Origin: Fibrobacter sp.
GTDB lineage: Bacteria > Fibrobacterota > Fibrobacteria > Fibrobacterales > Fibrobacteraceae
Reading direction: 5' to 3'
Length of the DNA stretch: 64,000 nucleotides
Assembly (NCBI GenBank): GCA_016285835.1
Contig: JAEERM010000003.1
Span: forward strand, 1-64,000
A model generated the notes under the pieces. It searched no databases, had not been told where the DNA came from, and saw nothing but the letters and a program-made list of their open reading frames with translations. The translations under genes were made by a program, and so were the position numbers. Of the stretch, positions 18,958-44,767 are shown in pieces (the stretch's first letter is position 1; every line of letters begins with the position of its first letter).

Positions 18958-18989
18958 GTTTATCTTTCCTTTTTTTTAGTCTTTACTTT

Positions 18990-19070
18990 GTCATTGCGAG
19001 GTCACTTAGTGACCGTGGCAATCTCTTACCAAATTTTGGATTGAGATTGCTTCGCTACGCTCGCAATGAC
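18990..19070. repeat. Composite inverted TCATTGCGAG repeat between tonB and exbB
   Basis: GTCATTGCGAG...GGCAATCTC-spacer-GAGATTGCTTCGCTACGCTCGCAATGAC. Confidence 0.88.
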
Positions 19071-19115
19071 ATGGGTGCCGAGTGCTGCAGAAAAGCTTGC
19101 ACAATGAAAATAGTG

Positions 19116-19832: not shown

Positions 19833-19841
19833 TAGATTTTA

Positions 19842-21086
19842 TTAGAAGTAATACTTCGCTTTCGCCCAAACTTCGCGGTTCTTCTTGTAACCTGCGAGTT
19901 GTCCACGCTTGCCTCCAAAGTGGTCATAGCCGAGCGAGAGCATCACTTGATCGGTAAGCGAGTAATCGCCCGAGGCACGGCCATAGTAGCCGAGGTTATC
20001 AATGTCAAACATGCCGTAGAGCGAGAGCTTTAGCGTGTTGTTCAGCAATTCCTTTGAAATGCGGAAAGTCATTTCGGAGGAATTCTTTTCATTTGCAAGT
20101 TCATCTGAATAGTCGGCGATGTACTTGTGCAAATACTGTACCATGAAGGTCCAGTTGTTGCCTGCGTACCAGTCAATTCCACCGAGCGCGTTGAACGTAT
20201 TCTTGCGGGCGTAATCGAGGTTGTTGGCGTAACCGAGTGCTTCTCTGAAATATTCCGCAACTTCGGCTCGAATCACAAATTCGCCAATGGGCATTGACAT
20301 GTCTCCACCGAACATCGTCATGGTCTCATGAATCCCGTGAATTACGACGGAATCCTTGCTGACGGGCTCTACGACAGAGACCGGCGACTGGTTGTGCGTA
20401 TGGAGCGCCGAGATGGAGAAATCCAGATTCGAGAGGAAGAAAGATAGTCGCGTTCCGAAGTCGCCATTCTTGAATTTTGCATCGGGGCCTTCAGGGAAAT
20501 CAAGCCCCGCTTTCTCGGGCAAGTTCGGGCGCCAGGGATTGTCCTCGCTGAGGGGCATCTGGAAGTATCGTGGTACAGGCACATAGACGATTTCGGCGTT
20601 TACCCGCTCGCCGGGGTACTTGACGCGGAAACCGTCAACGGCCATGCGCATGTCGTCGTAATCGCTCGACATGAATTCGGTGTAATCTACAGGCGAAATC
20701 AGATCGGTGACGCGCAACCCATCGGCAACGCCCCACACTACAATCTGGCGACCCGCTTTGAACTCCACGAGGTCATTCTGGTAGTTGAAATATGCCTCTT
20801 GCAGTTGCACGCCGGTGCGGTCATCGAGAATGCTGTTGTGTACGCCATTTAGGCTAGTGAACAAATAGGCGTTCTCGTAATCTACGCGAAGTTCTGCGCG
20901 CAGGCGCGTCCGCGACGTGGTAAAATCGTGCGGATGCTGCGTCTGCACCGCATGATACGTGTCCACGAATCCATTGAATTGAAACGGGGACTCTTGAGCA
21001 AAGGCAGATGCCGACGCTAACAACAATGCTACTAGAGATTGCTTCGCTACACTTCGTTTCGCTCGCAGTGACATTTTCATTAACAC
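19842..21086 (-). CDS. Outer-membrane beta-barrel protein (DUF1302/alginate-export-like)
   Basis: Signal peptide ...LLLASASAFAQ; FNGFVDTYHAV; RTRLRAELRVDYEN; KAGRQIVVWGVADGLRVTDLISP; C-terminal KAKYYF. Confidence 0.75.
   Translation of the reverse strand: MLMKMSLRAKRSVAKQSLVALLLASASAFAQESPFQFNGFVDTYHAVQTQHPHDFTTSRTRLRAELRVDYENAYLFTSLNGVHNSILDDRTGVQLQEAYFNYQNDLVEFKAGRQIVVWGVADGLRVTDLISPVDYTEFMSSDYDDMRMAVDGFRVKYPGERVNAEIVYVPVPRYFQMPLSEDNPWRPNLPEKAGLDFPEGPDAKFKNGDFGTRLSFFLSNLDFSISALHTHNQSPVSVVEPVSKDSVVIHGIHETMTMFGGDMSMPIGEFVIRAEVAEYFREALGYANNLDYARKNTFNALGGIDWYAGNNWTFMVQYLHKYIADYSDELANEKNSSEMTFRISKELLNNTLKLSLYGMFDIDNLGYYGRASGDYSLTDQVMLSLGYDHFGGKRGQLAGYKKNREVWAKAKYYF
21034..21073. repeat. TCATTGCGAG-family repeat within the signal-peptide codons of the OM protein
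   Basis: AGAGATTGCTTCGCTACACTTCGTTTCGCTCGCAGTGACA; translated as MSLRAKRSVAKQS. Confidence 0.85.
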
Positions 21087-21118
21087 TTCCTACTGTCTAC
21101 TTCCTACTGCCTACTATT
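21087..21118 (-). repeat. 7-bp periodic TAG heptad repeat
   Basis: Minus strand TAGTAGGCAGTAGGAAGTAGACAGTAGGAAGTG directly after the preceding CDS stop. Confidence 0.85.
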
Positions 21119-21901
21119 TTAAAGTCCTCTTTCCAGGCGCGGGACGGTGAACGTCTTCGCGTCAAGCGGAATGTTGAACTTGATGTCGCCGAATTCAAGG
21201 AGCGTCTTGTGGTTGGTCTGCACGTTTTCCATGCTCATCTTGGCGATAGACCAGAATCCGTCCACTTGAACCACATTTTCGACCTTCAGCAAACGGTGCA
21301 GTTTGCCGAGCTTGTCGTAGTATTCCACCTTGGCGGCAATCAGGCAGTCCTTGCGAATCCAGGAAATTTTTTTCGAGAAGATTTCGTCGCTCTTCTTGGG
21401 TACGGATTCAACGACCCAGCAGTCTACGCCATCGACTTTTTCTTCGCGCACGAATGTATGCGTGTCTTCGTCGATATTGCGCTGGCCCACATCGTCGTAA
21501 GTGAAGTCGGAACCCATGAAGTAATCCGTCTTGGAGCTTTTTCCGCTAATGCGGCGCGTTTTTTTCATGGCGGGCAAGTAGAGCCACTTGTCGTCATCCT
21601 TGTTGATGTCGTCGTAATCGACCGTCAGGAATCCCGTGCCCTTCACGTCGTTGGGGTAGCGGAAGAACATAATCTGCTTGGTGTCCTTGCCCACGTCCAT
21701 CGCAAACGAGGTAATCTTGCGTTCGCGTTTGCTGCCGCTCTTGTTGATGAGAGTCATCGAAAGTTCGGAACTGCGGGTGTCGCCATCGGGGCGGTCATGT
21801 ACCTTCTGCACGATGTCACGGCCGGTTAAAGTTTCTGCGCTCACCATGGCGCTCAAGGCGATAATAATTGTCGCGGCTGTTTTTGTGAATTTCATATTCA
21901 T
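21119..21901 (-). CDS. Outer membrane lipoprotein-sorting protein (LolA-like)
   Basis: Signal peptide; [39 protein letters not shown]...[32 protein letters not shown] typical of MMPL-associated LolA-like proteins. Confidence 0.85.
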
Positions 21902-21910
21902 AAATTTCTC

Positions 21911-24286
21911 CTATTTTCCAAAAATCTTGAATTTCTTGATTAAAAGCGGTGTCACGAACAGGTCGGCGAGCAATGCCGAGACAAGGCCCACGAACACCAC
22001 GAAGCCGAAGTTGAACATCTGCGTTGCGGCCGAGGTGGTAAAGCCCGCAAATGTCGCCACCATGATAATCGTCGTCATCACGAGGGCCGGGCCTGCCGTG
22101 CGGAATACGTTGAGAATCGATTCGCGGTAATCGTGGGTGCGGTCAAATTCCACATGCCCATGGTTGATAAAGTGAATCGTGTCGTCAACGGAAAGGCCGA
22201 TAATCATCGGAATGAGCGTCGCCGTCATCATGTCAAGCGGAATGTCCGTGAGCCCGAGGTAGCCGCCCACGAAAATACCCGGCGCAATGTTCGGAATCAT
22301 GCCGATAAGGCCCGTGCGGATGCTGCCGAAAACAATCATCAAAAGGACAGCCACGATGACCACAGAAATCAGGAACGAAGTCATTTGGCCTACTTCTAGG
22401 TACTGCTGCATGGCGGTGAATTGCGGCAAGTTACCCACGGCAGTCACCTTCGCGTCCGGATAAAGTTTGCGTGCGAAATTCTGCAAGTCCTCGATTTCCT
22501 TCTGGAGTTCGTTGGAGTTGTAGCTTGAAATTTCAATCATCAGGCGGAGCTTCCTGTAATCGTAATCCATCCAGTAGCTTGCTTCGCTGCCGCCCGCGTT
22601 TTCGTAGAGCAAAAGCAGCTGAGCGACTTCTTCTTCCGTTTCGGGAATTGCGTATTTTTCCTGACGGTTTTCGTTCAGCGTGCGGTCCAAATCCTTGACG
22701 ATGTCAAGAATCGAGGTGGAGCGCTTGGTGAGCGGGTACTTGCCGGCATGATCCTGCAACTGTTCCAACTTTTTCAGGTTCTCAACTTCCTTGGCCTTGT
22801 CGTTTGTACCAAAGTCAATCACCAAGTCGTAAGAGTAGAAGCTTCCGATTTCGGATTCTGCCACGTAGAGCATCTTGTTCACGTATTCGACCTTGCGGCC
22901 CATGGTGCGTTCTACGTCAAAGGCGGGTTCTATCTTGGTGAGCCCGAAAGCAGAAATTGCTGTCACGACGGCGAATACAATCGCAATCGGCTTGCCGTGC
23001 CCGAGAACGAACTTGCCGATAGAATCGAGAATGAGTCCCATGCGCGTGTCGCCGCGTTCAAGCACCTTGGCGTTCGGCTTCTTGTCTTTGCCGAAACTCA
23101 GGAGAATCGGCGAAACCGTCAGCGCCACGAGAAGGATGAACGTAATCGCAATCGACGAGAGAATGCCCACGGAACGAATCGGCTTGAGCATCACCGACAA
23201 GAAGCTGAGCAGCGCCACGATGGTGGTAAGGCCCGAGAACAGCACCGACCAGCCTGTTTCACGCATGGCGTAAAGTACCGATTCCTTGCGCTTTCCCGTA
23301 AGCATCATGTTCTTGCGGAAGAAAGAATTGATGTGAATGTTGTACGCAATCGAAACGGCGAAGGCCAAAATTACCGGAACCATGATGTTGGTCGCATCCA
23401 TGTAAAGCCCGAGATAACCCACCAAGCCGAAGGTCATAATGACGCCCGCAAAAGTCGTAATCAATGGCGAAACGATTCCGCGGAGCGAACGCGTTACCAG
23501 GAACATCACGACGATGGCGCAGAGAATGGTGATGATGAAAATGCGGCCCATTTCTTCGCCGATGTATTTCAGCTTCTGGAAACTCAGGTAGGGCATGCCC
23601 GTCGCGCGCGGGTGCAGCGGCGCATACTTTTCCTTCGCGATGATTTCAGCCGTTTCGCGGCCCGTCTGCATGTCGGGCGCTTCTGCCTTCACGCCCTTCG
23701 CTTCGCCTTCGGCCTTCCACACGGAATCTTCGGGGAAGGGGCGCAGCTTGATGTTGATGAAGGCCTGCTTGCGGTCGCTCGAAATCAGCTTCTTCGCCAG
23801 TTCCGGCTTGTCGGCCAGGCGCTTCTCGATTTCGGCAATGCCCGCCTCGTCTGTCGGAATTTCTTCGGGCACAATCTGCGTGATTTCCATGCCCTCTTCG
23901 GTGCCGAGCATGTATTCCAAATCGACAATCGAAGTTGCCTTGCCGTCGGAATACGAAAGACTATCGCGCAGTTCATTTGAGAGTTCGCGCAAAAGCTTCA
24001 GGTTGTCCGGCGTCAAGATGGAATGGTCGCTCTCGACCAGTACGCCCACGAAATAGTCGTTACCGAAAGTTTCCTTGAACTTGTCCGTTTCGACAAGCAT
24101 CGGGTCTCCCTCGATAAAGTAGCTGTCCCAAGACGCCTCGACGTAGATTTTTTTCATGCCCACAATCGAAACCGCGAGCAAAACGATAAACGCCACCAGC
24201 ATAATGGCGCGGTGATTGAGCAAAAATTCGCCAAAACGGCCGAACCGCTCGTTGATTCTTTCAATGTTAATCTTTGGAAGGCTCAT
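21911..24286 (-). CDS. MMPL/RND-family transporter
   Basis: 12-TM RND architecture; NIAPGIFVGGYLGLTDIPLDMMTATLIPMIIGLSVDDTIHFINH. Confidence 0.92.
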   Translation of the reverse strand: MSLPKINIERINERFGRFGEFLLNHRAIMLVAFIVLLAVSIVGMKKIYVEASWDSYFIEGDPMLVETDKFKETFGNDYFVGVLVESDHSILTPDNLKLLRELSNELRDSLSYSDGKATSIVDLEYMLGTEEGMEITQIVPEEIPTDEAGIAEIEKRLADKPELAKKLISSDRKQAFINIKLRPFPEDSVWKAEGEAKGVKAEAPDMQTGRETAEIIAKEKYAPLHPRATGMPYLSFQKLKYIGEEMGRIFIITILCAIVVMFLVTRSLRGIVSPLITTFAGVIMTFGLVGYLGLYMDATNIMVPVILAFAVSIAYNIHINSFFRKNMMLTGKRKESVLYAMRETGWSVLFSGLTTIVALLSFLSVMLKPIRSVGILSSIAITFILLVALTVSPILLSFGKDKKPNAKVLERGDTRMGLILDSIGKFVLGHGKPIAIVFAVVTAISAFGLTKIEPAFDVERTMGRKVEYVNKMLYVAESEIGSFYSYDLVIDFGTNDKAKEVENLKKLEQLQDHAGKYPLTKRSTSILDIVKDLDRTLNENRQEKYAIPETEEEVAQLLLLYENAGGSEASYWMDYDYRKLRLMIEISSYNSNELQKEIEDLQNFARKLYPDAKVTAVGNLPQFTAMQQYLEVGQMTSFLISVVIVAVLLMIVFGSIRTGLIGMIPNIAPGIFVGGYLGLTDIPLDMMTATLIPMIIGLSVDDTIHFINHGHVEFDRTHDYRESILNVFRTAGPALVMTTIIMVATFAGFTTSAATQMFNFGFVVFVGLVSALLADLFVTPLLIKKFKIFGK

Positions 24287-24447
24287 TGTATCCTCTCTTT
24301 TTTTGCAGAGCAAAAAGTAGAGATATGAGCCTAAAAAATCTACTCCAAATGGTTTTGTGCAAAACCGAACAGTTTTTAAATCCTTTCCAGATTATTTGCT
24401 GTCCATTTGGAGCGGTTTTTTGAGCGATTTTCGGCTACTTTTGGCGC

Positions 24448-24699
24448 ATGAAAAACGCTGATTTTGTTGACCATTTGAGCCTCGCCGAAATGGGCGAAAA
24501 TCGTTGCGGAACGGTTGCCCAAATTGAGGGCGATTCCCGCTTTATTTCAAGAATTGTTTCCATCGGGCTTACGCCGGGTTCCGCCTTTACGCTCCTCAAG
24601 AATGATGGGCGCTCGCCGGTGCTCGTTTTTTGTCGCGATACAGTTATCGCTGTCAATCATAAGGAAAGTTCACAGATTTTTGTCAAGGTGGAATCGTAA
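24448..24699 (+). CDS. feoA: FeoA-domain ferrous iron transport protein
   Basis: RFISRIVSIGLTPGSAFTLLKNDGRSPVLVFCRDTVIAV; directly upstream of feoB. Confidence 0.85.
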   Translation: MKNADFVDHLSLAEMGENRCGTVAQIEGDSRFISRIVSIGLTPGSAFTLLKNDGRSPVLVFCRDTVIAVNHKESSQIFVKVES

Positions 24700-24701
24700 A
24701 A

Positions 24702-26735
24702 ATGAGCGAAATCAAGACTATTGCTTTGCTCGGACAGCCTAATTCTGGTAAATCGACGCTTTTTAACAACCTTACAGGGCTTCATCAGCGCGTGGGCAAC
24801 TGGCCCGGAAAAACGGTGGAACAGGCCGAAGGTTCTTTCGTTTTCGATGGTGTTACATACAAGGTTGTTGACCTTCCGGGGAGTTACGGGCTTTCGGCAA
24901 ACTCCGAAGAAGAAGTTGTCACCCGCGACTATATTCAAAGCGGCAAGGCGGACCTTGTGTGCATTCTGGTGGACGCTTCGCAGTTGGAACGCAGCCTTTA
25001 CATGTTGGCTGATTTTGTCGGCATTCGCATGCCTGTGATGCTAGTGCTCAACATGATGGATGTAGCCGAAGCGGCGGGCAAGAAGATAGATGCTGCTGCT
25101 ATTGAAAAGCTCCTCGGCATTCCTGTTATCGGCTTCAGCGCCGCAGAAACAAAGCGTTATCCTGAATTTTTCAAGAAAATGGTTTCGGCCATCAAGACTC
25201 CTGTTTGCCTTGATAGTGGGAGTTTACGTGATGAACTCGTTGGCGATAAAACAGAAGATCTTATAAGCCGCATTGAAGTGGCCTTGGGTGACTTTGAATA
25301 CGGCGTATGCGAAAAAATCTGGATTGCGGAAAAACTTCTCGAAAAAGACAAGCTCGTTTGCGGCATCGTGAATGAAATGCTTCCGTTCGCCCGTAAAAAT
25401 GCGATTGACGCGATTCTCGATAGCGAAGAAGGGCGTGACGGCGGTATTCTCACCGGCGAAGCTAAGTACCGCTGGGTCTCAAAAATTGTACGCGAATCGG
25501 CGACGCCCAAGTCCATCGAGAAGGTCTTTAGCAAGTGGGACCGCATCGCGACGCACCATATCAAGGGCAAGTTCTTTGCATTCGGAATCATGGTTGTCTC
25601 GCTGATTGCGTGCATGATACTTGCGTTCCCTGGCATGGGAATCGGTTTTGGAATGCAGCCTGTATTGCAGTCGCTCGTAGAACGTGTTGGCGGCGCACTT
25701 GGCGTCTGGCCCGTGGTGATTTCGTTCATCAATCTGGTGCTCGTCGGTGGAACTTGCATCACGATTTGTATGACGAGCTTTATTTTCTCCATTATTTTCG
25801 TGTTCCGCATCCTCGAAGAAATCGGCTATATGGCGCGTTTTTCGTATGCGTTCGATAGTTGGCTTTCGCGCCTCGGTTTGCAGGGCAAGGCGATTATGCC
25901 GCTGTTCTCTGGAATTGGTTGTACGGCGGGGGCAGTTTGCGGTACGCGCGTGCTCGATACTCGCGGGCAACGCTTGCTTGCGCTTGTTTTGTTGTGGGCC
26001 ATTCCGTGCGGGAGCAAGGTGGCTGTGGTGCTGTTCCTTGCATCAACTTTCTTCGGGTCGGCGGCTCCGCTGTTCGGCATCGGTTACGTGGCATTGATTT
26101 TTGCGAGTTTCTACCTGTCTTCACGTCTGTTCGGCAAAAAACTTGTCCCGCAGAATGAACGCGTGGGCATGATTATGGAACTTCCGCCGTATCACAAGCC
26201 GCATTGGAAGATGATTGCCGCGATGGTCGGGCGCAGCACCTGGGGCATTTTCAAGAAGGCCTTGAAGATGATCCTGATGGTGGCCGCACTTTTCTGGGCG
26301 CTCTCTTACGCGGGCGATGGGAATGTAGAAAATACGCTCCTGTACAAAATTGGCAATGCGATTGAGCCTGTCACGATGTTCTTCGGAATGCGCTGGGAGC
26401 TGTTCGTCTCTTATCTGGGTGGCATGTTCAGCAAGGAAGCATCGCTCGGTATCATGAGTACGCTCTTCAACCACACCGGCGAGGCTTTCTCGCTTGTGAC
26501 CCGCGTGGCGGCAAGTGAAAACCTGGGCGAGGCTCTTGCGAATACCATCACCAAGCCCGAAGCGCTCGCGTTCCTGTTTGCATCGATGTTCAACGTACCT
26601 TGCGTACTTGCGATGGGCACTACCTACCGCGAGGCTGGTTCAATCAAGTGGCTCTGCACGATTATGGGCTATTATGTGGCACTTTCGCTCGGGCTCGCCT
26701 TTATCGGCTACCACATCGGATTGCTGATTTTCTAA
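24702..26735 (+). CDS. feoB: FeoB ferrous iron transporter
   Basis: LLGQPNSGKSTLFNNLTG, VDLPGSYGL, NMMDVAE; GIGCTAGAVCGTR; SKEASLGIM. Confidence 0.95.
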   Translation: MSEIKTIALLGQPNSGKSTLFNNLTGLHQRVGNWPGKTVEQAEGSFVFDGVTYKVVDLPGSYGLSANSEEEVVTRDYIQSGKADLVCILVDASQLERSLYMLADFVGIRMPVMLVLNMMDVAEAAGKKIDAAAIEKLLGIPVIGFSAAETKRYPEFFKKMVSAIKTPVCLDSGSLRDELVGDKTEDLISRIEVALGDFEYGVCEKIWIAEKLLEKDKLVCGIVNEMLPFARKNAIDAILDSEEGRDGGILTGEAKYRWVSKIVRESATPKSIEKVFSKWDRIATHHIKGKFFAFGIMVVSLIACMILAFPGMGIGFGMQPVLQSLVERVGGALGVWPVVISFINLVLVGGTCITICMTSFIFSIIFVFRILEEIGYMARFSYAFDSWLSRLGLQGKAIMPLFSGIGCTAGAVCGTRVLDTRGQRLLALVLLWAIPCGSKVAVVLFLASTFFGSAAPLFGIGYVALIFASFYLSSRLFGKKLVPQNERVGMIMELPPYHKPHWKMIAAMVGRSTWGIFKKALKMILMVAALFWALSYAGDGNVENTLLYKIGNAIEPVTMFFGMRWELFVSYLGGMFSKEASLGIMSTLFNHTGEAFSLVTRVAASENLGEALANTITKPEALAFLFASMFNVPCVLAMGTTYREAGSIKWLCTIMGYYVALSLGLAFIGYHIGLLIF

Positions 26736-28377: not shown

Positions 28378-30729
28378 TTATCGTCCTTTTCCGTATGGTT
28401 TTGTGAGGTACACAAGTGCCGTGGTGAGCGTGTAGTCGGCGATGAGGGCGGCACCAAGGCCCACGATGGAAAGCAGGCCCACGTTGTGGAGCGCGCCCAT
28501 GGGGCTGAAGATGAACACGAAGAACATCGCGCAAAGAATGAAGGTGGTCATGCCCATGGTCTTCCCGATTTCGCGGTAAGAGAGCAGTAGCGCGTGCCTG
28601 TAGCTGCCCGTGCGCTCGAATCCGTATTTGATGTGGTTGTTCATGTGGATGGTGTCGTCGACGGCGATGCCCAAAATCATAGGCATCACGAGCATGGTGA
28701 TCATGTCGAGCGGCATGCCCGAATAGCCCATGACGCCACCAATTAGGAGTACTGGCGCGACGTTCGGAATCATCCCGATAAGGCCAGCCTTGATGCTCCC
28801 GAACGCAAGAATCATCATGATGGCGATAATTACGAATGAGCCGCCGAACGAACGCAATAGCCCGCCAACGAGTTTGCCGTTCATCTCGGCGTAGTTCACG
28901 ACTTCGCCTACGACGGAAACTTTCGCGTCGGGGAAAATCTGTGCACCGTAGCTTTTTGCCGAATCCAGGTCTTCTACGATTTTGTTCGCGTCATAGCCCG
29001 CAAGTTCTATGTGGATGTAAGTCATCTTGTAATTTTCGTCCATGCGTTCAAAGAGTGCGTCCGGGTCCGAAATCTCGTACAGGAACAGCAGCTGTGTGAG
29101 CATGTCCTGCGCGTCGGGAATCTTGTAATACTCGATATTGTCGGCGTTCAGCGTGCGGTTCATCTCTTTCACGAGGCGAGTCACCGATTGTACGCGTGGC
29201 TTGTCGCCCGAAATCTTGGTGAGCTGGAGCGTGCCGAGTTTTTGTTCCAGTTGCTCGATGCGCTTCATGTTGGCAGGGTCCTTGAGCGCATCGTCGTTCT
29301 CGAATTCCACCATCACGTTGAAATCGTAGAGGCTCCCGATTTTGCCGCTGAGCATGTCTTTAAGCCGCACCACAAAAGGAATCTTTTCACCCATGGTCTC
29401 GGTGTAATCCATGTTCACGTCAATATGCATCATGCCCGGAACTTGCAACAGCATGATTGCTGCCGAAACGGCCGCGACAATACCGCTGTGCCTGCAAACT
29501 TTGCGCCCGAAAAATTCAAAGAGAATGTCTGCCTTGGTGGCTCCTGCCGATTTTATCTGCGTCGGGTCCGGTTTCGCATTCTTGCCGAAGCTCATGAGAA
29601 TCGGAATCAGGATGATGACGTACAAATAAACCATCGTGACAATGCCCGCCGAAATCCCGCCAATCCAGCGAATAGGGCGAATGCCCGCGAACAGGAACGA
29701 AATCAGCGATGCAACCGTGGTGATGACCGTAAAGAGAATGGGCCAGCCCGTTTCTTCGACGGCGCAAATCACGGATTCGCGGCGGTTGCCCGTGCGCCTA
29801 AAATGCATGCGGAACGAATTGATGTAGTGGATGGAATAGCCCACCGAAAGTGCCATGCCCAAAAGCACCGGAAGCGCGACCATGCTCTCGTCGCCGATAA
29901 TGCCGAGCCAGGCGTTAATGCCGAGTACCGAAGCGATGCCTCCGACCGTTGCAATCGCGGGCACCACCACGCCACGGAACGAACGCACAAATAAAATGAG
30001 GCATACGAGCATCACCATGAATCCGATGCCGATGCGTATGGCGCATTCACGCGAAATGACTTCGTTTTCTTCCATCTCGGTGTAGCTCATGCCCGTCGGG
30101 AGCATCTCGAACTTGTCGCTTTTGAATTCGTCGGAATAGATGACTTCGCGGGCGAAAGGCGCAATGCTGTCTTTGCCGAAATCAACTCCTCCCTCGTAGG
30201 ATTTTAGCGAGAGGATAACCCAAGTTTCCTTCGCGTCGTCCGAGACAATATTGTTCACGAGCGATTCGCGGGAAAGAATCAGCCGTTTTTTCGTTTCAAG
30301 TTCCTGCGGGTTCTCGGGAATACCGCTCTCGAACGGATCGATGACTTCAAAACCTTCGTCATTGGCGACTGGAATCGACAAATTGTGCGTCAGCGAAACC
30401 ACGCGGTCAGCGTAAGGTACTTCGTTTTCGAGTCTGCGCGAAAGTTTGTCAATCGCCTGCAAAACCTCCGGCGCAAACACGTCGTCGGCACGCACCATCA
30501 CCATATAGCCATCGTCGCTGCCGAATTTTTCGTTAAAGTGCGCCTGGTCAATCTTTACCTTGTCCCAGTCGTCAAACCATTCCTCTTCGCTGCTCGTCAT
30601 CTGCAGATGCGGCAAACCGAGACACGCCAAAACCGTCACAACAACTGTCGCCAGCAATATCAGCCAGCGAAACTTGACCTGAAAATGCCCCAACCGGGCA
30701 AAAACCTTGTTGACACGAGAAACTTGCAT
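28378..30729 (-). CDS. MMPL/RND-family transporter (second copy)
   Basis: NVAPVLLIGGVMGYSGMPLDMITMLVMPMILGIAVDDTIHMNNH; same architecture as 21911-24286. Confidence 0.92.
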   Translation of the reverse strand: MQVSRVNKVFARLGHFQVKFRWLILLATVVVTVLACLGLPHLQMTSSEEEWFDDWDKVKIDQAHFNEKFGSDDGYMVMVRADDVFAPEVLQAIDKLSRRLENEVPYADRVVSLTHNLSIPVANDEGFEVIDPFESGIPENPQELETKKRLILSRESLVNNIVSDDAKETWVILSLKSYEGGVDFGKDSIAPFAREVIYSDEFKSDKFEMLPTGMSYTEMEENEVISRECAIRIGIGFMVMLVCLILFVRSFRGVVVPAIATVGGIASVLGINAWLGIIGDESMVALPVLLGMALSVGYSIHYINSFRMHFRRTGNRRESVICAVEETGWPILFTVITTVASLISFLFAGIRPIRWIGGISAGIVTMVYLYVIILIPILMSFGKNAKPDPTQIKSAGATKADILFEFFGRKVCRHSGIVAAVSAAIMLLQVPGMMHIDVNMDYTETMGEKIPFVVRLKDMLSGKIGSLYDFNVMVEFENDDALKDPANMKRIEQLEQKLGTLQLTKISGDKPRVQSVTRLVKEMNRTLNADNIEYYKIPDAQDMLTQLLFLYEISDPDALFERMDENYKMTYIHIELAGYDANKIVEDLDSAKSYGAQIFPDAKVSVVGEVVNYAEMNGKLVGGLLRSFGGSFVIIAIMMILAFGSIKAGLIGMIPNVAPVLLIGGVMGYSGMPLDMITMLVMPMILGIAVDDTIHMNNHIKYGFERTGSYRHALLLSYREIGKTMGMTTFILCAMFFVFIFSPMGALHNVGLLSIVGLGAALIADYTLTTALVYLTKPYGKGR

Positions 30730-30840
30730 AAAACATCCCATTAATAATTTCTCGCGAAAAATAGCGTTTCAATGCCTTTTTTTCTACTCCAAATGGACGG
30801 AGATAGAAAAGGGGAGCGAAAATTCTTGCAGCGTAATTAA

Positions 30841-35703: not shown

Positions 35704-36540
35704 TCATGCTACATTTGTAAGTCTGTATCGTTTCCTGTATTCCTTCGGGGTCATGCCCATTACATCTTGGAAAGCGTGGGCGAACTTGCTCCCGTTATTG
35801 TACCCGACCGTGCCTGCGATTTGCAGAATTCCATGGTCACTTTCACGGAGCTCCTTGGCTGCAATTTTCATGCGCTCGCGACGTGCATAAGTAAATACGG
35901 GCAGCCCGAATACGTTCTTGAAACAGAGCTTCATTGCGGTGGGGGGCATGTCGAACTTGTCGGAAAGCTCTTCAATGGTGAAATGGCTATCCATGTTTTC
36001 GCAAATGAACGTGCGGATTCCGTAAATTTTTTCAATCTGTAACGACGACAGGTTACATTCACGGCAGGCGTATTCCCTTTGTGTATCTAGATTTTTCAAG
36101 GTGAGTAGCAGTTCCAAAATTGCGAGCCTGCCGTATTCCGTCAAAGAATTCTTCGTCTTGTTTTCGACCATTTCGAAAGCGCGGGCGACTTCTTCTTTGG
36201 TGTGAACGATGAACGGACGTCCTGGACGGCAGATTTTTTGAGCGAGCATCTTGATATCAAGTTGGAAACCTGCAAAATGTTCTTGTATGTATTTTGTGGA
36301 TTCCTCGTAGAACAGGATGCGGTCGCCGCAATAATCTGCGGAACGGGTCAACGCTCCCGAAGTCCATGCGTCGTAAACCAGCAATTCTCCGGCTTTCAGC
36401 TGATTACAGGGGAGTGCGCCCCCGGCCCAACTGATACGTCCCTTCCGGCAAAATTCAAGGACCAAAAGCGGTTCCCTTGTGAGTGTCGTATGGTAGCACC
36501 CAATCTTGTGCAGCCATTCAATTCCGTTGATACTTAACAT
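35704..36540 (-). CDS. AraC-family transcriptional regulator (PchR/YbtA-like)
   Basis: C-terminal double HTH: FTIEELSDKFDMPPTAMKLCFKNVFGLPVFTYARRERMKIAAKEL...GYNNGSKFAHAFQDVMGMTPKEYRKRY. Confidence 0.92.
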   Translation of the reverse strand: MLSINGIEWLHKIGCYHTTLTREPLLVLEFCRKGRISWAGGALPCNQLKAGELLVYDAWTSGALTRSADYCGDRILFYEESTKYIQEHFAGFQLDIKMLAQKICRPGRPFIVHTKEEVARAFEMVENKTKNSLTEYGRLAILELLLTLKNLDTQREYACRECNLSSLQIEKIYGIRTFICENMDSHFTIEELSDKFDMPPTAMKLCFKNVFGLPVFTYARRERMKIAAKELRESDHGILQIAGTVGYNNGSKFAHAFQDVMGMTPKEYRKRYRLTNVA

Positions 36541-36610: not shown

Positions 36611-36703
36611 GTTGAGAAAACTTTGTCAAGGCTAATTTTGTTTTGCTTATATGACTTTTTTAATACGATTTTGTCTAAATGGAGTCAAATTAGGCTTAAT
36701 GGG

Positions 36704-38401
36704 CTATGTTTGCCATAATTTTGCATAATATCCATTTTTTCCCAATAATTCCTTATGTTTCCCTCTTTCGAGTAAACATCCTTTTCTCAATGTTAGTATC
36801 TGGTCTGCATTTTGGATTGTTTTCAAATGGTGCGCGACGACAATCATGGTTCTGTTTTTTGCCAAATCAGCAATAGCTTCCTGTATAAGAGACTCGTTGA
36901 CGGGATCGACGTTGCTCGTCATTTCATCTAGAATCAGGATAGGAGCATCCTTCAAGAACGCCCTTGCAATAGAAATTCTTTGCCTTTGTCCTCCGGACAA
37001 TGTGCAGCCGTTTTCTCCAATATTTGTATCGTAACCCTTAGGCAAGGTCATAATGAAATCGTGGATACGTGCTTTCTTTGCCGCTTCAACAATTTCTTCC
37101 CTTGTCGCATGTTTTTTTCCCACTCTGATGTTTTCTTCAATAGTGTTGTCAAACAGCTGAACGTTCTGCATGACAACACTTATACGATTCAGCAGTTCGT
37201 CGTAGGGAATATCCCTAATGTCAACGCCTCCGAGTGTGATTTTTCCTTGTTGAACATCGTAGAATCTCAGAAGTAAGTTGGTTATCGTCGTTTTGCCGCT
37301 TCCCGATTCTCCTACTAGCGCAACCATTGTTTTCTCGCCAATGTCAAAGTTCAGATTTTCTATCTTGAATTCGTCTTTAGCATACGAAAATCCGATATTT
37401 TCAAAAGTGATATTGTTTTGTTTTGGAATGGCTCCATCGATCTTATCAGGAATTTCGTCTGCATGCAGAATTTTTCCCAATCGTCCATATGAATCTGCAG
37501 CCGAAATATAATACATATAGTATTGTTCCATCAAAGAAAACGGCTTGTAGAATTCTCTAGAGACTATGGCGAAAATGATGAAATTCAAAACACCTATTTC
37601 GCCATTCACAACAAATAATGAACCAGAAGCGAGTAATATCAGGTATCCCGCATCTAGCAAAAAGCTGAAAACGCAAAGTTGTCTAGCCTTGTACTTTGAT
37701 GCCGTCTTACTAGTCTCGCCAAATTTTTCTGTTTTGCTCTTTAAATCTTCATCGAGACTTGTATTATTTGAAAAACTTTTTAGAACCGTAATCCCCCTGA
37801 TATATCCCACGAAAAGGCTTACCATGTCCAGGAGTGCTACATTATTTCTGTTTTCCACTTTTTTTGATGCTTTGATTGTCTTGACCAAGAATGCGATTGC
37901 AATTGGAACCGATGCCGCCATTATAAAAGCGAGTTTAAAATCAATATAGGTGAGCCATACAAATACAATAATCGAAACCATGAAATCGCCAAACATTCTA
38001 GGCCACATGTGCCCTACGACCAGCGACATGTTATCTACGTCTTTGCGTAGTACTGTATTGATTTCTCCTATTCTTTCGTTTGTGTAAAATCCAAGACTGA
38101 ATTTTTTTAGCTTTAAAATCATGCGTTCTCTGATTTGCTGGACAATGTCAAAACCGGCACCATGTTTTTTCAAGTCCGCAACCATGTTACAAATGCCCTT
38201 GAAAACCACAAATAGCCCTATAGCGATAAAATGCACATAAAGATTTTTCAAATCGGTTCCTGCAAATATTTGGAACAATGCCGAGAAGACAATCACAATC
38301 ATCGCAACAGAACTCAAACCATATAGTGCAAAGAATACACTAGATGTGATTAAATCCTTCTTTCCTGTTTTTGTGAGCAGGTTTAACATATCCCTAAACA
38401 T
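36704..38401 (-). CDS. ABC exporter-fold transporter with fused permease/ATPase
   Basis: GESGSGKTTITNLLLRFYDV, LSGGQRQRISIARAFL, LILDEMTSNVD. Confidence 0.92.
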   Translation of the reverse strand: MFRDMLNLLTKTGKKDLITSSVFFALYGLSSVAMIVIVFSALFQIFAGTDLKNLYVHFIAIGLFVVFKGICNMVADLKKHGAGFDIVQQIRERMILKLKKFSLGFYTNERIGEINTVLRKDVDNMSLVVGHMWPRMFGDFMVSIIVFVWLTYIDFKLAFIMAASVPIAIAFLVKTIKASKKVENRNNVALLDMVSLFVGYIRGITVLKSFSNNTSLDEDLKSKTEKFGETSKTASKYKARQLCVFSFLLDAGYLILLASGSLFVVNGEIGVLNFIIFAIVSREFYKPFSLMEQYYMYYISAADSYGRLGKILHADEIPDKIDGAIPKQNNITFENIGFSYAKDEFKIENLNFDIGEKTMVALVGESGSGKTTITNLLLRFYDVQQGKITLGGVDIRDIPYDELLNRISVVMQNVQLFDNTIEENIRVGKKHATREEIVEAAKKARIHDFIMTLPKGYDTNIGENGCTLSGGQRQRISIARAFLKDAPILILDEMTSNVDPVNESLIQEAIADLAKNRTMIVVAHHLKTIQNADQILTLRKGCLLERGKHKELLGKNGYYAKLWQT

Positions 38402-40133
38402 TTTCCGTTTCCTCCTCTTTCAGGTTCCATTGATCCACTTTATTTTGCGCATCGATCATGTTTTTATAATGACTGCATCTTCGCATCAATTCTTCGTGAG
38501 TTCCGGAATCAAGTACAACTCCTTGATCCATCACAACGATTTGGTCCGATTCCTTGATTGTATTTAAATGATGGGCGATCGTAATGACCGTTTTGCCTTT
38601 GCGCAAATCGTCAATCGCTTCGCTGATTAGCCGCTCATTTTCACTATCAACGGCTGCCATGGCTTCGTCAAGAATTAGTATAGGCGTATTTTTCAGAATC
38701 GTTCTCGCAATAGAAATTCTCTGTTTTTCGCCTCCAGATAACTTGATTCCCATTTCTCCGACTCTTGTTTTGTACCCATTGGGTAGGGATTCGATAAAGT
38801 CATGGCATCTTGCTTTTTTTGCCGCATTGATAATTTCTTCGTATGTCGCATCGGGGTTCCCCAAAGCGATATTTTCATAGATGCTTAAATCAAAAAGTAT
38901 GGCATCTTGTTGTACACTCCCGATAAGTCGAGAGATACATTCTTGACTGTAATCTCGGATATCTTTATCACCTATTGTTATTTTTCCGCTTTCAACATCC
39001 CAAAAGCCCATCAGCAAATTTGATATCGTACTCTTTCCACAACCGCTTGCGCCGACAAGCGCATTCAAAGTATTTTGTTTAAAAATGAGATTCACATTTT
39101 TTAACTGGAAACTATCTTTCTTGTAGCTAAAATTCACATTTTTGAATTCGATATCCCCAAATTCTAATCCTTGCTCCTCTTTTTCTCTTGGGAGCGGAAC
39201 GGTTAAAATTTTGCCGACCGCTTTTAGAGCTTCTTTAAAGACTATGGAAAAATGTTGCAAAGTTGCGGTCTTGCTGATAGACGATGTGAACGCAGAGGAT
39301 AAAATAACTGCCAGTATGAATTTCGGAGTCGTAATATATCCATAATAAAGGAAAATACATCCAAGAATCATGACGGCGACCACGCCCGTTTCCATGAATA
39401 CATCAATTAACCCCATGGGAACCGTGATTGCTCCCATGCTTTTTTTTACCCAATAGACATACTCCCTTGCCGTCTTCAACGTTCTTTCGCTGATTTCCTC
39501 TTCTTTTGCAAATGCCTTGATAACAGGAATGTTCTTCACGTATTCCATCATTTCTTTACTCATTTGATTTTCATGACTGAAATAGATGGCGAAGTTCTTG
39601 TTCATCACTTTTTGTGAAAGTTTTTTCACCAGGTACATTAGGGGTAGCCCCACAATCATCCCAAGCGCAAGGCGCCAATCAACAAAAAACATCGCCACAA
39701 GAATCAATGCCGGTAAAAGCGTTACAGACATTATCTCAGGAAGCCCATGTGCAAGGTAAACTTCAATCTGTTCGACATCATGTTCAACGATATTCGTGAG
39801 CTCGCCGGTATGGTGCTCCTTGAAAAATCCAAGATTCAATTTTTTTAAATGTTCAATGATATCTAGCCTGAGCTCCGTCAGTTTGCCATAAGCCTTGTCA
39901 TGCGCCCCCTTTGTTGCGAGATAATAAAACACCGCTTTCAACAAGAACGATGCAAATATTCCAAGAATGATGAACTTTATTTTTTCGGAATCAATGTTTT
40001 TTCCGATTAACTCGCTCACTAGGTATACGAGCAGTATTTGCGGAATCAGATCACAAACAATTTTCAATGCAAGTAGGGTGTTAGAAAGAGCATTTTTCCC
40101 CACCACTTTTTTTTGCAATTCCATTTCGTTCAT
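38394..40133 (-). CDS. ABC exporter-fold transporter with fused permease/ATPase
   Basis: GASGCGKSTISNLLMGFWDV, LSGGEKQRISIARTIL, LILDEAMAAVD; 8-nt overlap with 36704-38401. Confidence 0.92.
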   Translation of the reverse strand: MNEMELQKKVVGKNALSNTLLALKIVCDLIPQILLVYLVSELIGKNIDSEKIKFIILGIFASFLLKAVFYYLATKGAHDKAYGKLTELRLDIIEHLKKLNLGFFKEHHTGELTNIVEHDVEQIEVYLAHGLPEIMSVTLLPALILVAMFFVDWRLALGMIVGLPLMYLVKKLSQKVMNKNFAIYFSHENQMSKEMMEYVKNIPVIKAFAKEEEISERTLKTAREYVYWVKKSMGAITVPMGLIDVFMETGVVAVMILGCIFLYYGYITTPKFILAVILSSAFTSSISKTATLQHFSIVFKEALKAVGKILTVPLPREKEEQGLEFGDIEFKNVNFSYKKDSFQLKNVNLIFKQNTLNALVGASGCGKSTISNLLMGFWDVESGKITIGDKDIRDYSQECISRLIGSVQQDAILFDLSIYENIALGNPDATYEEIINAAKKARCHDFIESLPNGYKTRVGEMGIKLSGGEKQRISIARTILKNTPILILDEAMAAVDSENERLISEAIDDLRKGKTVITIAHHLNTIKESDQIVVMDQGVVLDSGTHEELMRRCSHYKNMIDAQNKVDQWNLKEEETENV

Positions 40134-40175
40134 AGGTTTTCCTCCTTTCTATTCTTTCTTTCATAATTGAATAAA

Positions 40176-40193
40176 ATTGAATCTTGATTCAAT
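40176..40193. promoter_or_regulatory. Candidate TetR operator upstream of ABC pair
   Basis: Palindrome ATTGAATCTTGATTCAAT; related half-site ATAAATCTCGATTCAAT at 40861-40877 before the tetR gene. Confidence 0.6.
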
Positions 40194-40238
40194 ATTAAAA
40201 TCAAAGACCGGATTTCCCACTTTCTCCATCTTTATTAT

Positions 40239-40811
40239 TTAAAGTGATTCTACGCCATTATAATAGCACTGGGCGACTAACTTCAGCATATTTTCGGCCC
40301 ATTCCCTGCTTTGATAATGCCTCGCAATTTCGAGGAGGCTTTCCGTGAAATTACTGGCCAGGATATGGGCGAGCATTGGGTCGTATTTTTTCTTCGTCTG
40401 TCGTTTGAGTCCAATTTCTATATGCTTCTGCATCTGCAATATAAAATCAAATTTCGCCTTTTCGTGCCTTGTGCCTGAGCTCCTGTCCATTAGAACTATG
40501 AGTTTTTTTCGATCTTTCAATAATTCTCGAATATAACTTTGCCCAACCTTATCAAACCTTTCAAGTGGGGAGCCTTTTTCCAGGGCTTCCTCTTCTTGGA
40601 GCGCCGAACAGAAATTTGAATATACTGAGCCTACGGTCGCATCAAATAAGTTTTCCTTGTTATCAAAATAGGTATAAATAAGTGCAACAGGAACATTTGC
40701 CAACTTGGCAATCTCAGAAAGCTTGGCGCTTCTGTAGTCTTTTTCAAAAAAAACATTTTCAGCCGCATCAAGAATCCGGTTCCGGACTTCTTCCTTCAAT
40801 ACCTGTGCCAT
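40239..40811 (-). CDS. TetR-family transcriptional regulator
   Basis: RNRILDAAENVFFEKDYRSAKLSEIAKLANVPVALIYTYFDNKENLFDA. Confidence 0.93.
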   Translation of the reverse strand: MAQVLKEEVRNRILDAAENVFFEKDYRSAKLSEIAKLANVPVALIYTYFDNKENLFDATVGSVYSNFCSALQEEEALEKGSPLERFDKVGQSYIRELLKDRKKLIVLMDRSSGTRHEKAKFDFILQMQKHIEIGLKRQTKKKYDPMLAHILASNFTESLLEIARHYQSREWAENMLKLVAQCYYNGVESL

Positions 40812-40904: not shown

Positions 40905-40939
40905 CCATTTGGGTTTTTCTTGCACCATTTGGAGTAGAA
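40905..40939 (+). promoter_or_regulatory. CCATTTGG direct repeat, 20-bp spacing
   Basis: CCATTTGGGTTTTTCTTGCACCATTTGGAGTAGAA upstream of 41019 gene; same layout at 42442-42476. Confidence 0.65.
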
Positions 40940-41018
40940 CCACTTAGAAGACATTTCTAAAATGCTCCTGCAAATTGAATATCGCGGTTTATTTCCGCAT
41001 AATCTTACAGGAGCTAAT

Positions 41019-42347
41019 ATGAAAAAAAGTTTTTTGATGGCACTTGCAGTGTCTTTCGGCATGCTTGTTGCTTGTGGTGACGATTCCTCCTCTTCTGCAA
41101 GCGGAGACGATGAAAAGGAGCTTTCCTCTTCTTCGGTTGAAAAGTCCGGTAATAAAGACAAAAAGTCCAGCAGCAGTAAAGGCAAATCTAGCGACAGTAA
41201 GGGCAAATCTAGCAGTTCCAAGAAGGAAGAAAAGGGCGAATATAAGCGCGAATTCGCAACTGCTATCGCTTCGGGCGAAACAATGTTCATCGGCACGATG
41301 TCCCTGGGCCACACGGACGATTTGGGCAAGGACTTCATTGAAGTCGGCACCCGCGCTGGCGTTGTCTATTACGACAATTCTCTGTTCATTGCTGACCTTA
41401 GTGTGGGCTCCATTGCACGCTACAGCCTTGACAAAAACAATAAGATTGGCAAAAAAACTGCGGAGCTTTCGCTCCCTGGCGTCTGGGTAAACCACATTTT
41501 CTTTGTGAACGAAGAAAAGGCTTACTTGGCTGGTGCTTTTGATTCCCTGCTCATTATCAACCCGAAAACCATGAAGCGCACGGGCGCAATTGACCTTTCC
41601 GAGTATAAAAACGATGATGCTATTGCCGTGTCTCCGGGCACGGGACTCATTGTTGATGGGCGCCTTTATGTGGGCCTGCTGCAGAGCATTAGTGACTATG
41701 TGACCGGTTATACGGCCCAGGTCGCTATCATTGACATCGAGAAGGATTCCGTGATTGCTGTGGCCGAAGATGATCGCGTTGCGGCCGTGGGTTCGCTGGA
41801 TGACTCGCAGAATCAGGCTTTTATTCTTGCTGATGGCTACATTTATTGCTACTGCAACGCCTCCTGGGGCTATTCTCCGGATGGCCAGACCGACGGTTTC
41901 CTGCGTATCAAGGTGGGCGAAACCAAATTTGATAAGGACTATGCATGGCTCGTGACCAAGGAAGTTGCCATTGATGGCATCACCAAGAAGGATAACTTCA
42001 AATATCTGAGTCCGGCCACATACGCTGTCGGCACCAAGGTCTATGCCTTCCTGAACGTGATGGTGGATTTGCAACAGGTCTGGACCGATATGGATAGCTA
42101 CCACAACAATACCTGCAAGCCGGTAGAAATCGATCTTGCCAAAAAGAAAATGAAGGCGCTCCCGATTGATTACACTTCTAGTTGGGCTAGCTACGGCAAG
42201 TACATCGATGACGACGGCACCGTAATTTTTGCAGTTTCGACCGAAAAAGATGGCAACGCCTACTTCCGCTATGACCCGAATACCAAAAAGGCCGAAAAGA
42301 TTGCAACGGTTGAACCGATCCCGATGTGGATTGTGCCGCTGAAGTAA
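41019..42347 (+). CDS. Lipoprotein, predicted beta-propeller (DUF4374/XusB-like siderophore-binding candidate)
   Basis: MKKSFLMALAVSFGMLVACGDDSSSS lipobox; repeated propeller-like strands (VVYYDNSLFIADLSVGSIARYSLDKNNKI...); next to TonB-dependent receptor. Confidence 0.6.
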   Translation: MKKSFLMALAVSFGMLVACGDDSSSSASGDDEKELSSSSVEKSGNKDKKSSSSKGKSSDSKGKSSSSKKEEKGEYKREFATAIASGETMFIGTMSLGHTDDLGKDFIEVGTRAGVVYYDNSLFIADLSVGSIARYSLDKNNKIGKKTAELSLPGVWVNHIFFVNEEKAYLAGAFDSLLIINPKTMKRTGAIDLSEYKNDDAIAVSPGTGLIVDGRLYVGLLQSISDYVTGYTAQVAIIDIEKDSVIAVAEDDRVAAVGSLDDSQNQAFILADGYIYCYCNASWGYSPDGQTDGFLRIKVGETKFDKDYAWLVTKEVAIDGITKKDNFKYLSPATYAVGTKVYAFLNVMVDLQQVWTDMDSYHNNTCKPVEIDLAKKKMKALPIDYTSSWASYGKYIDDDGTVIFAVSTEKDGNAYFRYDPNTKKAEKIATVEPIPMWIVPLK

Positions 42348-42392
42348 GCGAAAAATTCTTCATAAAACACAGTATCCTCATAAACACAAACC

Positions 42393-42429
42393 TCCGTTCT
42401 TGCCTATGGCAAGGACGGAATTTTTTTTG
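42393..42429 (+). terminator. Rho-independent terminator
   Basis: TCCGTTCTTGCCTATGGCAAGGACGGAATTTTTTTT. Confidence 0.88.
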
Positions 42430-42441
42430 TGCGTACGGAAT

Positions 42442-42476
42442 CCATTTGGATTTTTTAGGGCCCATTTGGAGTAGAA
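42442..42476 (+). promoter_or_regulatory. CCATTTGG direct repeat, 20-bp spacing
   Basis: CCATTTGGATTTTTTAGGGCCCATTTGGAGTAGAA immediately upstream of TBDR. Confidence 0.65.
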
Positions 42477-42490: not shown

Positions 42491-44767
42491 ATGCTCTATT
42501 GCGCTGCGATGAAAAAGATGTTTATTTACAAGGCGATTGCGTTTGCCGCTATATTTGCAACGCTTGGCGTGGTGCCGGCTCGCGCCCAAGATGACGAAGT
42601 GACCTCAATAGACGATTTCTTGGAGGAATCAGCTCCGGAAAGTGCCACAGTAGATGGAAATACGAATAGCGCTGTGGCTCAATCGGGTACGTCTGTAGAC
42701 AATGCATCGGGAATCACTCAACTGGACGAACTCTCGGTGGAATCTGAAGTTGAAGCGGAACGGGCAAAACAAGCCAAAAAGGCAGAAGCTGTCGTGACAA
42801 TCGATGCTGTCGAGATGCAGAATACAAGTAAGACCGTTTCGAAAGCGATAAATTCTGCCTCGGGCGTAAAGGTGCGCAAGTCTGGTGGCATGGGCAGCGA
42901 AGGCAAGGTCAACATTCGCGGCATGGAAGGCAAGAATATCAAGGTGCTCGTGAACGGAGTCCCGGTCGAAACGCAGGGCAACTTGGGCCTAGACGATATT
43001 CCCATCGATCAGATTGCAGATATCGAAGTTTACAAGGGCTATGTTCCTGCGCGTTTTGCAACAGATGGTGCAGGTGGTGCAATAAACATCATTACCAAGA
43101 AGCGTCCCGCCAATTCGGTAGATGCGTCCTATAGTTTTTCGAGTTTTAATTCGCACAAGGCGTCTGTTACTGCAAGCCATTTGATTGATAGCATTGTTGG
43201 TCACGCTGGTTTAGAAGTGGGTGTGTCGGGGTATTTCAATCATTCTGATAACGATTATGAGTTTACGTCGCCCTACATGAAAAGTTCTACAGGCAAAGAT
43301 ACTACCATCGTTCGCGATCACGACCATTATACCTCTTATAACGTGCAGGCTTTTGCAAACTTGATGAATGCTTGGTTTGACCAGGTTTCGTTGGGCGCAA
43401 GTTATGGTGCCTTCGATAAGGAAATTCAGGGAGATGCGAACCGCATTGTCGAAACGAAAAATGAGGGGTACAATTTCGGTGCCACATTCGGGCTCGACAA
43501 AAAAAATATTTTCGTGAACGACCTGAATTTCGGTAATCATTTTTCGTTTGGGTATAGCGAAAATAAGGTCATTGATACGAGCCGAGTGCATTGTCGCAAC
43601 TGGTTCACCTGTGATACCGCCAAAAAAAATGTGGGCGAACTATCTACGATGGGACTCCCGAAACTGAGAACAGTGCAGGCGTATGATTTCAATAATTTGC
43701 TGAATTTAGATTATCAGTTCATCAGGAACCAATTTATTTACTGGAATACTCTTTTCAGGTATCATAAAGAAGACCCCGAAGATGATTTTGGCACCAAAAT
43801 GTTAGGCTTCAATACGGCTGGGTACCCGGGGAAAACAGTTTCTGTGACAACGGGCCTTTCGCTCGAAGATAATTTCTTTGATTCTCGGTTGCAGAACTTG
43901 CTGGGCTTCAAGTTCCATTACCTGAAAGCGGATATCTCTAACACGTCCACAAGTAGGTTGCAGAAAGCGACGGTTGAATCAAATGATTATACTGATTTTG
44001 GTTACGATGAAAGTTTGATGTTCCGGATTGTAAAACCGCTTGCGGTCAAGGGGTCTTACCAGCATGCGGTGCGCTTGCCCACTCCCGATGAACTCTTTGG
44101 CGATGGGGTGCGCGTGAGTGCTGCAACAAATCTCAAGCCCGAAGAAGCAGATAATTTTAACGTTGGCCTGTCTCTTGATTTGCAAGAAATCCCGCTGGTG
44201 GCACGGTTCCGATTTGATGGTGACGTTTTCTATTCTTACTACAAGAATCGCATTCATTATATGGGCTCATCACAGATGTCTGTGCCATACTTTAATATGG
44301 ACCCGATTCGCGGATGGGGCTACGAAGGCGACGTGAAACTCGATGTGAATGAATGGATATTGTTCGGAACGAACTGGACTTTCCAGGATTTGCGCAATAT
44401 AGATTATAATGCCAAGCAGGGCATTCTTGAAGATGCGATTATCCCGAACATTCCGCGATTCTTCATGAATTACCTTGCCGAATTCCACATGGGCGATGTA
44501 ATCAACAAAAATGATTTTCTCAAGTTCTGGTGGTCGGCAAACTATACTGACGAATACTATTATGGTTGGAAAATCAGTTCCCGTCAGAGCCGGAAAATTG
44601 AGGCTTCGTTTACACAGGATTTGGGCATAGAATACTCCGTATGGGATAATAAACTTGCCTGGAGTTTTGAGGTTGATAACTTTATGGATGAAATTGTTTA
44701 CGATAAATATGGCGAAAGTAAGCCTGGTCGCACTTTCGCTACAAAAATCAGGTATAGCTTCAGGTAG
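42491..44767 (+). CDS. TonB-dependent outer-membrane receptor
   Basis: Plug domain VRKSGGMGSEGKVNIRGMEGKNIKVLVNGVPVETQGNLGLDDIPIDQIADIEVYKGYVPARFATDGAGGAINIITKK; C-terminal TKIRYSFR. Confidence 0.93.
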   Translation: MLYCAAMKKMFIYKAIAFAAIFATLGVVPARAQDDEVTSIDDFLEESAPESATVDGNTNSAVAQSGTSVDNASGITQLDELSVESEVEAERAKQAKKAEAVVTIDAVEMQNTSKTVSKAINSASGVKVRKSGGMGSEGKVNIRGMEGKNIKVLVNGVPVETQGNLGLDDIPIDQIADIEVYKGYVPARFATDGAGGAINIITKKRPANSVDASYSFSSFNSHKASVTASHLIDSIVGHAGLEVGVSGYFNHSDNDYEFTSPYMKSSTGKDTTIVRDHDHYTSYNVQAFANLMNAWFDQVSLGASYGAFDKEIQGDANRIVETKNEGYNFGATFGLDKKNIFVNDLNFGNHFSFGYSENKVIDTSRVHCRNWFTCDTAKKNVGELSTMGLPKLRTVQAYDFNNLLNLDYQFIRNQFIYWNTLFRYHKEDPEDDFGTKMLGFNTAGYPGKTVSVTTGLSLEDNFFDSRLQNLLGFKFHYLKADISNTSTSRLQKATVESNDYTDFGYDESLMFRIVKPLAVKGSYQHAVRLPTPDELFGDGVRVSAATNLKPEEADNFNVGLSLDLQEIPLVARFRFDGDVFYSYYKNRIHYMGSSQMSVPYFNMDPIRGWGYEGDVKLDVNEWILFGTNWTFQDLRNIDYNAKQGILEDAIIPNIPRFFMNYLAEFHMGDVINKNDFLKFWWSANYTDEYYYGWKISSRQSRKIEASFTQDLGIEYSVWDNKLAWSFEVDNFMDEIVYDKYGESKPGRTFATKIRYSFR

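Follow-up and report, generated by a model that had tools for sequence, protein, structure and literature searches.

A conserved direct-repeat operator laid out like a class II AraC activator site in front of probable iron-uptake genes of Fibrobacter

Fibrobacter species are main cellulose degraders of the rumen, and a literature search found no earlier description of an iron regulon or of iron regulation in the genus. A 64,000-nucleotide stretch of Fibrobacter DNA (termed here the window) raises the question of such regulation: within it the same direct repeat stands upstream of genes for a XusB-like surface lipoprotein and for a TonB-dependent siderophore receptor. What is this repeat, which protein reads it, and which genes does it govern? 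The initial annotation had proposed an iron or siderophore regulon read by an AraC-family protein encoded nearby. The comparisons described here indicate that the repeat is a genuine operator, conserved in the genus and laid out like the site of a class II activator of the AraC family. It is, moreover, considered probable that this operator serves to activate an iron and xenosiderophore regulon, the AraC-family protein encoded at 35704..36540 (-) being its most likely reader and acting in class II fashion. The putative iron-uptake regulon is new, and its mechanism is of a known kind.

Copies of the repeat in the window and the draft genome

At both places the repeat has the form CCATTTGG-N12-CCATTTGGAGTAGAA. 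Upstream of the XusB-like gene, a distal half-site CCATTTGG at 40905..40912 (+) is followed by a proximal half-site CCATTTGGAGTAGAA at 40925..40939 (+), which is conserved in relatives; upstream of the receptor gene (receptor 1), the half-sites CCATTTGG and CCATTTGGAGTAGAA lie at 42442..42449 (+) and 42462..42476 (+). The pairs are as initially described, the half-sites being 20 bp apart and each pair ending in AGTAGAA. Genome-wide scans were pattern searches of the contigs of the 3.5-Mb draft genome, in which the window lies on contig C205 (76,848 bases). In these searches the perfect pair CCATTTGG-N12-CCATTTGG was found at 40905 and 42442 only, and the exact 15-mer CCATTTGGAGTAGAA three times, always inside the window, which also holds the one copy with a single mismatch (at 24338). 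The octamer CCATTTGG by itself is weak evidence, being mildly enriched in the window (8 copies versus 3 expected by chance). A scan of the draft and of related genomes, which had been suggested as a check, thus found exact copies restricted to a few iron-type loci and the layout upstream of orthologous genes. The motif is plainly a different sequence from the Fur-type iron box (a 19-bp inverted repeat, GATAATGATAATCATTATC-like).

Single or degenerate copies had also been noted elsewhere in the window. In front of the MMPL1 operon, the minus-strand site is present as a proximal half-site CCATTTGGAGTAGAT at 24338..24352 (-), but it is not single: 20 bp upstream, at 24365..24372 (-), stands a degenerate distal half-site that reads CTGTTCGG in the window genome and CCATTCGG in several relatives. 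The plus-strand site in front of feoA, at 24403..24417 (+), is likewise present, but reads CCATTTGGAGCGGTT, a feoA-specific variant that is retained in relatives; its distal half is weak in the window genome. The site upstream of MMPL2, CCATTTGGAGTAGAA at 30782..30796 (-), is indeed single, no recognizable distal half being found in the window genome. Four further sites beyond the window, at C205:67349, C15:27, C69:2890 and C69:12690, had been missed. In all, at least nine promoters of the window genome carry the motif, and the majority belong to iron-uptake genes. Seven other low-mismatch matches (2 mismatches; C3, C17, C26, C31, C48, C182 and C205:76695) were rejected as chance: the -10-like hexamer described below is at its fixed offset in 1/7 and absent from it in 6/7. 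A candidate autoregulatory site ahead of the AraC gene (36675-36702) was rejected as well: it has 3 mismatches, controls score alike, and TAAGCA stands at its -10 position.

At the second receptor the half-sites stand head to head, TCTACTCC...GGAGTAGA (L036 1-60, L212 9377-9428, L160); there they apparently serve divergent promoters, and the distal half can apparently take either orientation.

Promoter layout and its conservation in the genus

The first reading overlooked a third fixed element, namely a -10 hexamer downstream of the repeat. The promoter order is distal half-site, 20 bp, proximal half-site and, 33 bp past the first base of the latter, a -10-like hexamer. If the first proximal C is numbered 1, a T....T hexamer occurs at position 34 in 9/9 motif promoters of the window genome, whereas the next best hexamer offset fits 3/9. 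Within the window the hexamers are TAAAAT for the XusB-like gene (40958..40963 (+), placed by the 33-bp offset from the proximal half), TCTATT for receptor 1 (42495..42500 (+)), TACTTT for MMPL1 (24314..24319 (-)) and again for feoA (24436..24441 (+)), and TATTTT for MMPL2 (30758..30763 (-)); beyond it they are TCAATT for TonB receptor 2 (C15), TATTGT for two alpha/beta hydrolases (C205:67349 and C69) and TCTATT before a gene for a Trep_Strep-family membrane protein (C69). If the hexamer is the -10 element (-12 to -7), then the proximal half-site, which ends 18 bp short of it, spans -45 to -31 and places its AGTAGAA tail on the -35 position, and the distal half-site spans about -65 to -52 (the CCATTTGG of the XusB-like promoter lying at about -65 to -58).

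The layout of class II AraC/XylS activators is a pair of direct half-sites at a spacing of two helical turns, of which the proximal one covers -35; in the araI1-I2 operator of AraC, for instance, two direct half-sites lie about two turns apart, the proximal one at -35. The Fibrobacter promoters have this layout: their direct half-sites, YCATTYGGATTTT and CCRTTTGGAGTAGAA (such half-sites being typically about 15-17 bp), recur with a 20-bp period, and the proximal half covers -35 at a fixed distance from the -10 in 9/9 promoters. The AraC-type geometry that had been read from the two-turn repeat thereby gains strong computational support, both from the -10 spacing and from the position of the proximal half at -35. 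The half-sites of SphR are direct repeats of 15 bp, spaced by 6-8 bp (PMC3900636). The Fibrobacter sites differ in sequence from the araI1-I2 and SphR operators, and their -10 spacing is fixed across a multi-promoter regulon. Counting against this explanation, the -10 hexamers of the receptor genes (TCAATT and TCTATT) are without the usual -11A; relatives have TCAATT or TTAATT in this place. Upstream of the AraC gene itself is the sequence TTGACA-N17-TAGATT, which suggests that ordinary sigma-70 promoters exist in the host and hence that the missing -35 box at the targets is not a habit of the genus. A Bacteroidetes-type TTTG/TANNTTTG promoter was also considered and set aside, since the 20-bp TTTG-to-TTTG spacing is unsuited to the spacing expected of such promoters.

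In other Fibrobacter genomes the layout recurs upstream of orthologous MMPL1, receptor, XusB-like, feoA and MMPL2 genes. Among 30 non-redundant sites from the genus, information resides in the distal half, CYnTnYGGaTTTT (-19 to -6 in proximal-half numbering), in the proximal half (1-15) and in a third peak corresponding to the -10, TTTC-TANNNT (30-39), the spacer between the latter two having near-zero information; T34 occurs in 26/30 of these sites and T39 in 29/30. The motif of the MMPL1 promoter persists in genomes G008, G078 and G033 despite poorly aligning flanks, and in G033 and G078 about half of the MMPL1 four-fold sites differ. A second clade has a XusB-like promoter with the proximal B-box variant AGTTGAG, as well as a site upstream of a DUF3793 homolog; strict covariation between AraC type and B-box was not upheld, as some second-clade promoters retain AGTAGAA. 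In G005, where other genes part the TonB gene from the MMPL1 cluster, that gene has a site and -10 of its own (L218 about 19098; G005:C3:119098, minus).

Could the repeat be functionless, a product of chance or of promoter duplication, as the mild enrichment of CCATTTGG in the window might be taken to mean? The comparative data refute this, for the motif is kept in orthologous promoters through diverged flanks; its whole-genome rarity and the fixed -10 offset point the same way, leaving a probability that is practically nil. Nor is the motif likely to be an RNA-polymerase recognition element (i.e., the promoter of an alternative or lineage-specific sigma factor) instead of an activator site. 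Such an element would account for a -10-like hexamer at a fixed distance in every promoter, but the conserved region from -65 to -31, with its repeated half-site, is too long and too far upstream; together with the TTGACA-17-TAGATT sequence in front of the AraC gene and the confinement of exact copies to a few iron-type loci, this makes it very improbable.

The AraC-family protein as the likely reader

The protein encoded at 35704..36540 (-) has a C-terminal tandem HTH (HTH_18/PF12833, E 2.5e-18; PF00165, E 6.9e-8). Its AlphaFold model (pLDDT 81), in which an N-terminal jelly roll and a tandem HTH fold are predicted, matches full-length Rns/ToxT and the N-terminal domain of AraC with prob 1.00, the whole-chain rmsd being high; the predicted jelly roll would be a ligand-binding and dimerization domain. 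The gene heads a same-strand row that includes an ABC pair, a DUF3793 gene and a flavodoxin gene, and a contig search found close relatives of the protein in rumen MAGs of the Fibrobacter succinogenes group. In 13/13 close-ortholog loci that include the flank (AraC orthologs 62-88% identical), the site of the XusB gene lies 188-232 bp from the start of the AraC gene, and the two genes are divergent. In the window, a stretch of about 4 kb encoding ABC-ABC-TetR (36704..40811 (-)) separates the AraC gene from the XusB-like promoter. Across 60 other genomes of the genus, no protein closely related to its TetR (40239-40811) was found (one match, E 1.5e-6, 29% identity), so the stretch appears to have been inserted recently, parting the AraC gene from its divergent target. 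The AraC gene does lie between the ABC pairs, as had been observed, but this is incidental: the TetR gene and the second of those pairs appear to be newcomers. The second clade has an AraC homolog, 28-32% identical, near MMPL1; the 28%-identical homolog keeps many tandem-HTH residues (MK..FK, SKFA.AF) and accompanies the motif.

Among 61 genomes, the full promoter pattern with zero mismatches is present in 27/27 with either AraC versus 4/34 without (Fisher p 2e-13, a statistic that ignores shared ancestry and linkage). Two of the four exceptions, G028 and G067, are contaminated or incomplete genomes. The other two, G030 and G032, are complete and without an AraC ortholog, yet have intact sites at feoA, at MMPL1 and at MMPL2 or receptor 2; in G032 no PF12833 protein was detected in the complete genome. 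Both have lost the whole AraC-XusB-receptor 1 cluster, and their nearest AraC-bearing relatives differ from them at 18% and 6% of MMPL1 four-fold sites. The loss may therefore be recent, preceding decay of the sites, or another protein may read them; among seven candidates scanned in the remaining MMPL/feo cluster there was no shared regulator, but only a Fic/winged-HTH protein in G032. The proposal that the AraC protein is the reader is thus favored by the fixed -10 spacing, by conservation throughout the genus, by the divergent AraC/XusB-like layout and by co-occurrence, and is weakened by these AraC-less sites. Judging from co-occurrence and gene order, it is likely, rather than proven in view of the two complete genomes, that this protein binds the operator and activates from it.

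The operator might instead be read mainly by a regulator encoded elsewhere, with AraC as a mere neighbor or as a second, local reader; this would fit both the persistence of sites in G030 and G032 and the spread of regulon members over several separate clusters. It is considered unlikely, given that AraC coincides with the motif in every AraC-bearing genome (27/27), that the site sits between the divergent AraC gene and its target, that two-turn direct half-sites over -35 are the geometry of AraC/XylS proteins (SphR being an example) and that G030 and G032 have lost the entire AraC-XusB-receptor cluster, maybe recently. As for the TetR-family protein, its gene adjoins the 40905 site, divergent from the XusB-like gene in the window, and CCATTTGG is nearly palindromic (CCA-TT-TGG). 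However, the sites are widely conserved whereas a close TetR is absent from the 60 other genomes, and in relatives it is AraC, not TetR, that holds the flank of the XusB-like gene; TetR was accordingly rejected as the reader, its candidacy being extremely improbable.

With AraC as the preferred reader, and with activation, reader identity and signal all presumed from sequence patterns, the promoter might work as follows. An AraC dimer would bind the half-site pair, whose members repeat directly at an interval of 20 bp (two helical turns). With the proximal half-site CCRTTTGGAGTAGAA standing where a -35 box would be expected but is missing, the activator could recruit sigma-70 RNA polymerase there as class II activators do. 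What its N-terminal domain senses would probably be a ferri-siderophore or the iron state of the cell.

The putative regulon and its short leaders

The regulon would turn on capture (the XusB-like lipoprotein) and outer-membrane uptake (the TonB-dependent receptors), along with energy coupling (TonB-ExbB-ExbD), Fe(II) import (FeoAB) and a second MMPL gene. The XusB-like gene (41019..42347 (+)), which has a Shine-Dalgarno sequence and a leader, encodes a protein with a profile match to XusB (9hqe, E 2.9e-5) and a conserved Cys-19 that follows a signal-like start and precedes a Ser-rich linker. The best PDB folds for its model are those of XusB bound to ferrichrome (9hqk/9hqe, TM(target) 0.70-0.76). 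It thus combines a lipoprotein signal with a predicted beta-propeller fold, as XusB does, and is putatively located at the surface; lying next to a TonB receptor, it is a candidate ferri-siderophore binder that would hand its ligand on to that receptor. The receptor (42491..44767 (+), likely start 42509) has a Pfam Plug and a beta-barrel, its best NCBIfam match being the myxochelin receptor MxcH (E 4.5e-104, under that model's cut-off). The MMPL1 cluster (17953..24286 (-)) consists of same-strand genes for MMPL1, a LolA-like protein, DUF1302, TonB, ExbB and ExbD and presumably forms one operon, the last three products of which would provide the receptors with energy coupling. The feo genes (24448..26735 (+)) are feoA (24448-24699, a small ORF named by place and length) and feoB (24702-26735, Pfam FeoB); a second, longer FeoB (987 aa) is encoded at 57705-60668, and is not preceded by any recognized copy of the motif in the window genome. 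The MMPL2 transporter gene (28378..30741 (-), likely start 30729) lies upstream of 27605-28267 and of a ZupT-like gene (26744-27532). Together these target genes probably constitute a regulon for iron and xenosiderophore uptake, the iron response being deduced from gene content; the initial proposal of an iron or siderophore regulon gains strong computational support from the promoter layout, its conservation and its co-occurrence with AraC.

Comparable systems are known. YbtA (yersiniabactin) and PchR (pyochelin) are AraC activators encoded in siderophore-uptake clusters that include a TonB receptor and, in the case of YbtA, ABC transporters as well, and they respond to the cell's own siderophore; likened to them here in protein family and gene context, the Fibrobacter system differs in that its lipoprotein points to foreign siderophores. 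IutR of Synechocystis is reported to activate iron uptake globally, the iron-induced genes including feoB and flavodoxin (PMC11221513). As in Fibrobacter, the AraC-family genes of these IutR/PchR-type activators lie beside genes for TonB-dependent transporters (PMC11221513), but they are cyanobacterial and, motifs aside, are recognizably related to the Fibrobacter protein in the AraC HTH alone. The Xus xenosiderophore system of Bacteroides likewise has a XusB-like lipoprotein next to a TonB-dependent receptor; unlike the Fibrobacter locus, it includes a PepSY reductase, XusC, which is absent among the Fibrobacter genes examined, whereas MMPL clusters and ABC pairs lie near the Fibrobacter genes. 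A search of the text that describes it found neither AraC nor regulation mentioned (PMC13142918). The site thus gives a testable list of regulon members and suggests how the organism is supplied with iron, probably by foreign siderophores plus FeoAB; the operator plus -10 is also a candidate inducible promoter architecture for the genus.

Several targets have short distances between hexamer and start codon. The gap to the ATG is 6 nt for feoA (ATG at 24448) and the hydrolases and 8 nt for both receptors (ATG at 42509 for receptor 1), as seen in the window at 24436-24448 and 42495-42509 and around the site in L044 and L041; for feoA and the receptors it is conserved in relatives. Such gaps leave no room for a Shine-Dalgarno sequence, and feoA, both receptors and the two hydrolases would have leaderless or near-leaderless mRNAs; the XusB-like, MMPL1 and MMPL2 genes have leaders. 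If true, this would add a little-studied mode of translation. It is quite doubtful that one AraC-type activator sets both the transcription start and leaderless translation, with a second protein reading the operator in AraC-less lineages. Among about 250 ORFs from seven sampled regions, targets included, TANNNT is weakly over-represented at 6-7 nt upstream of the ATG.
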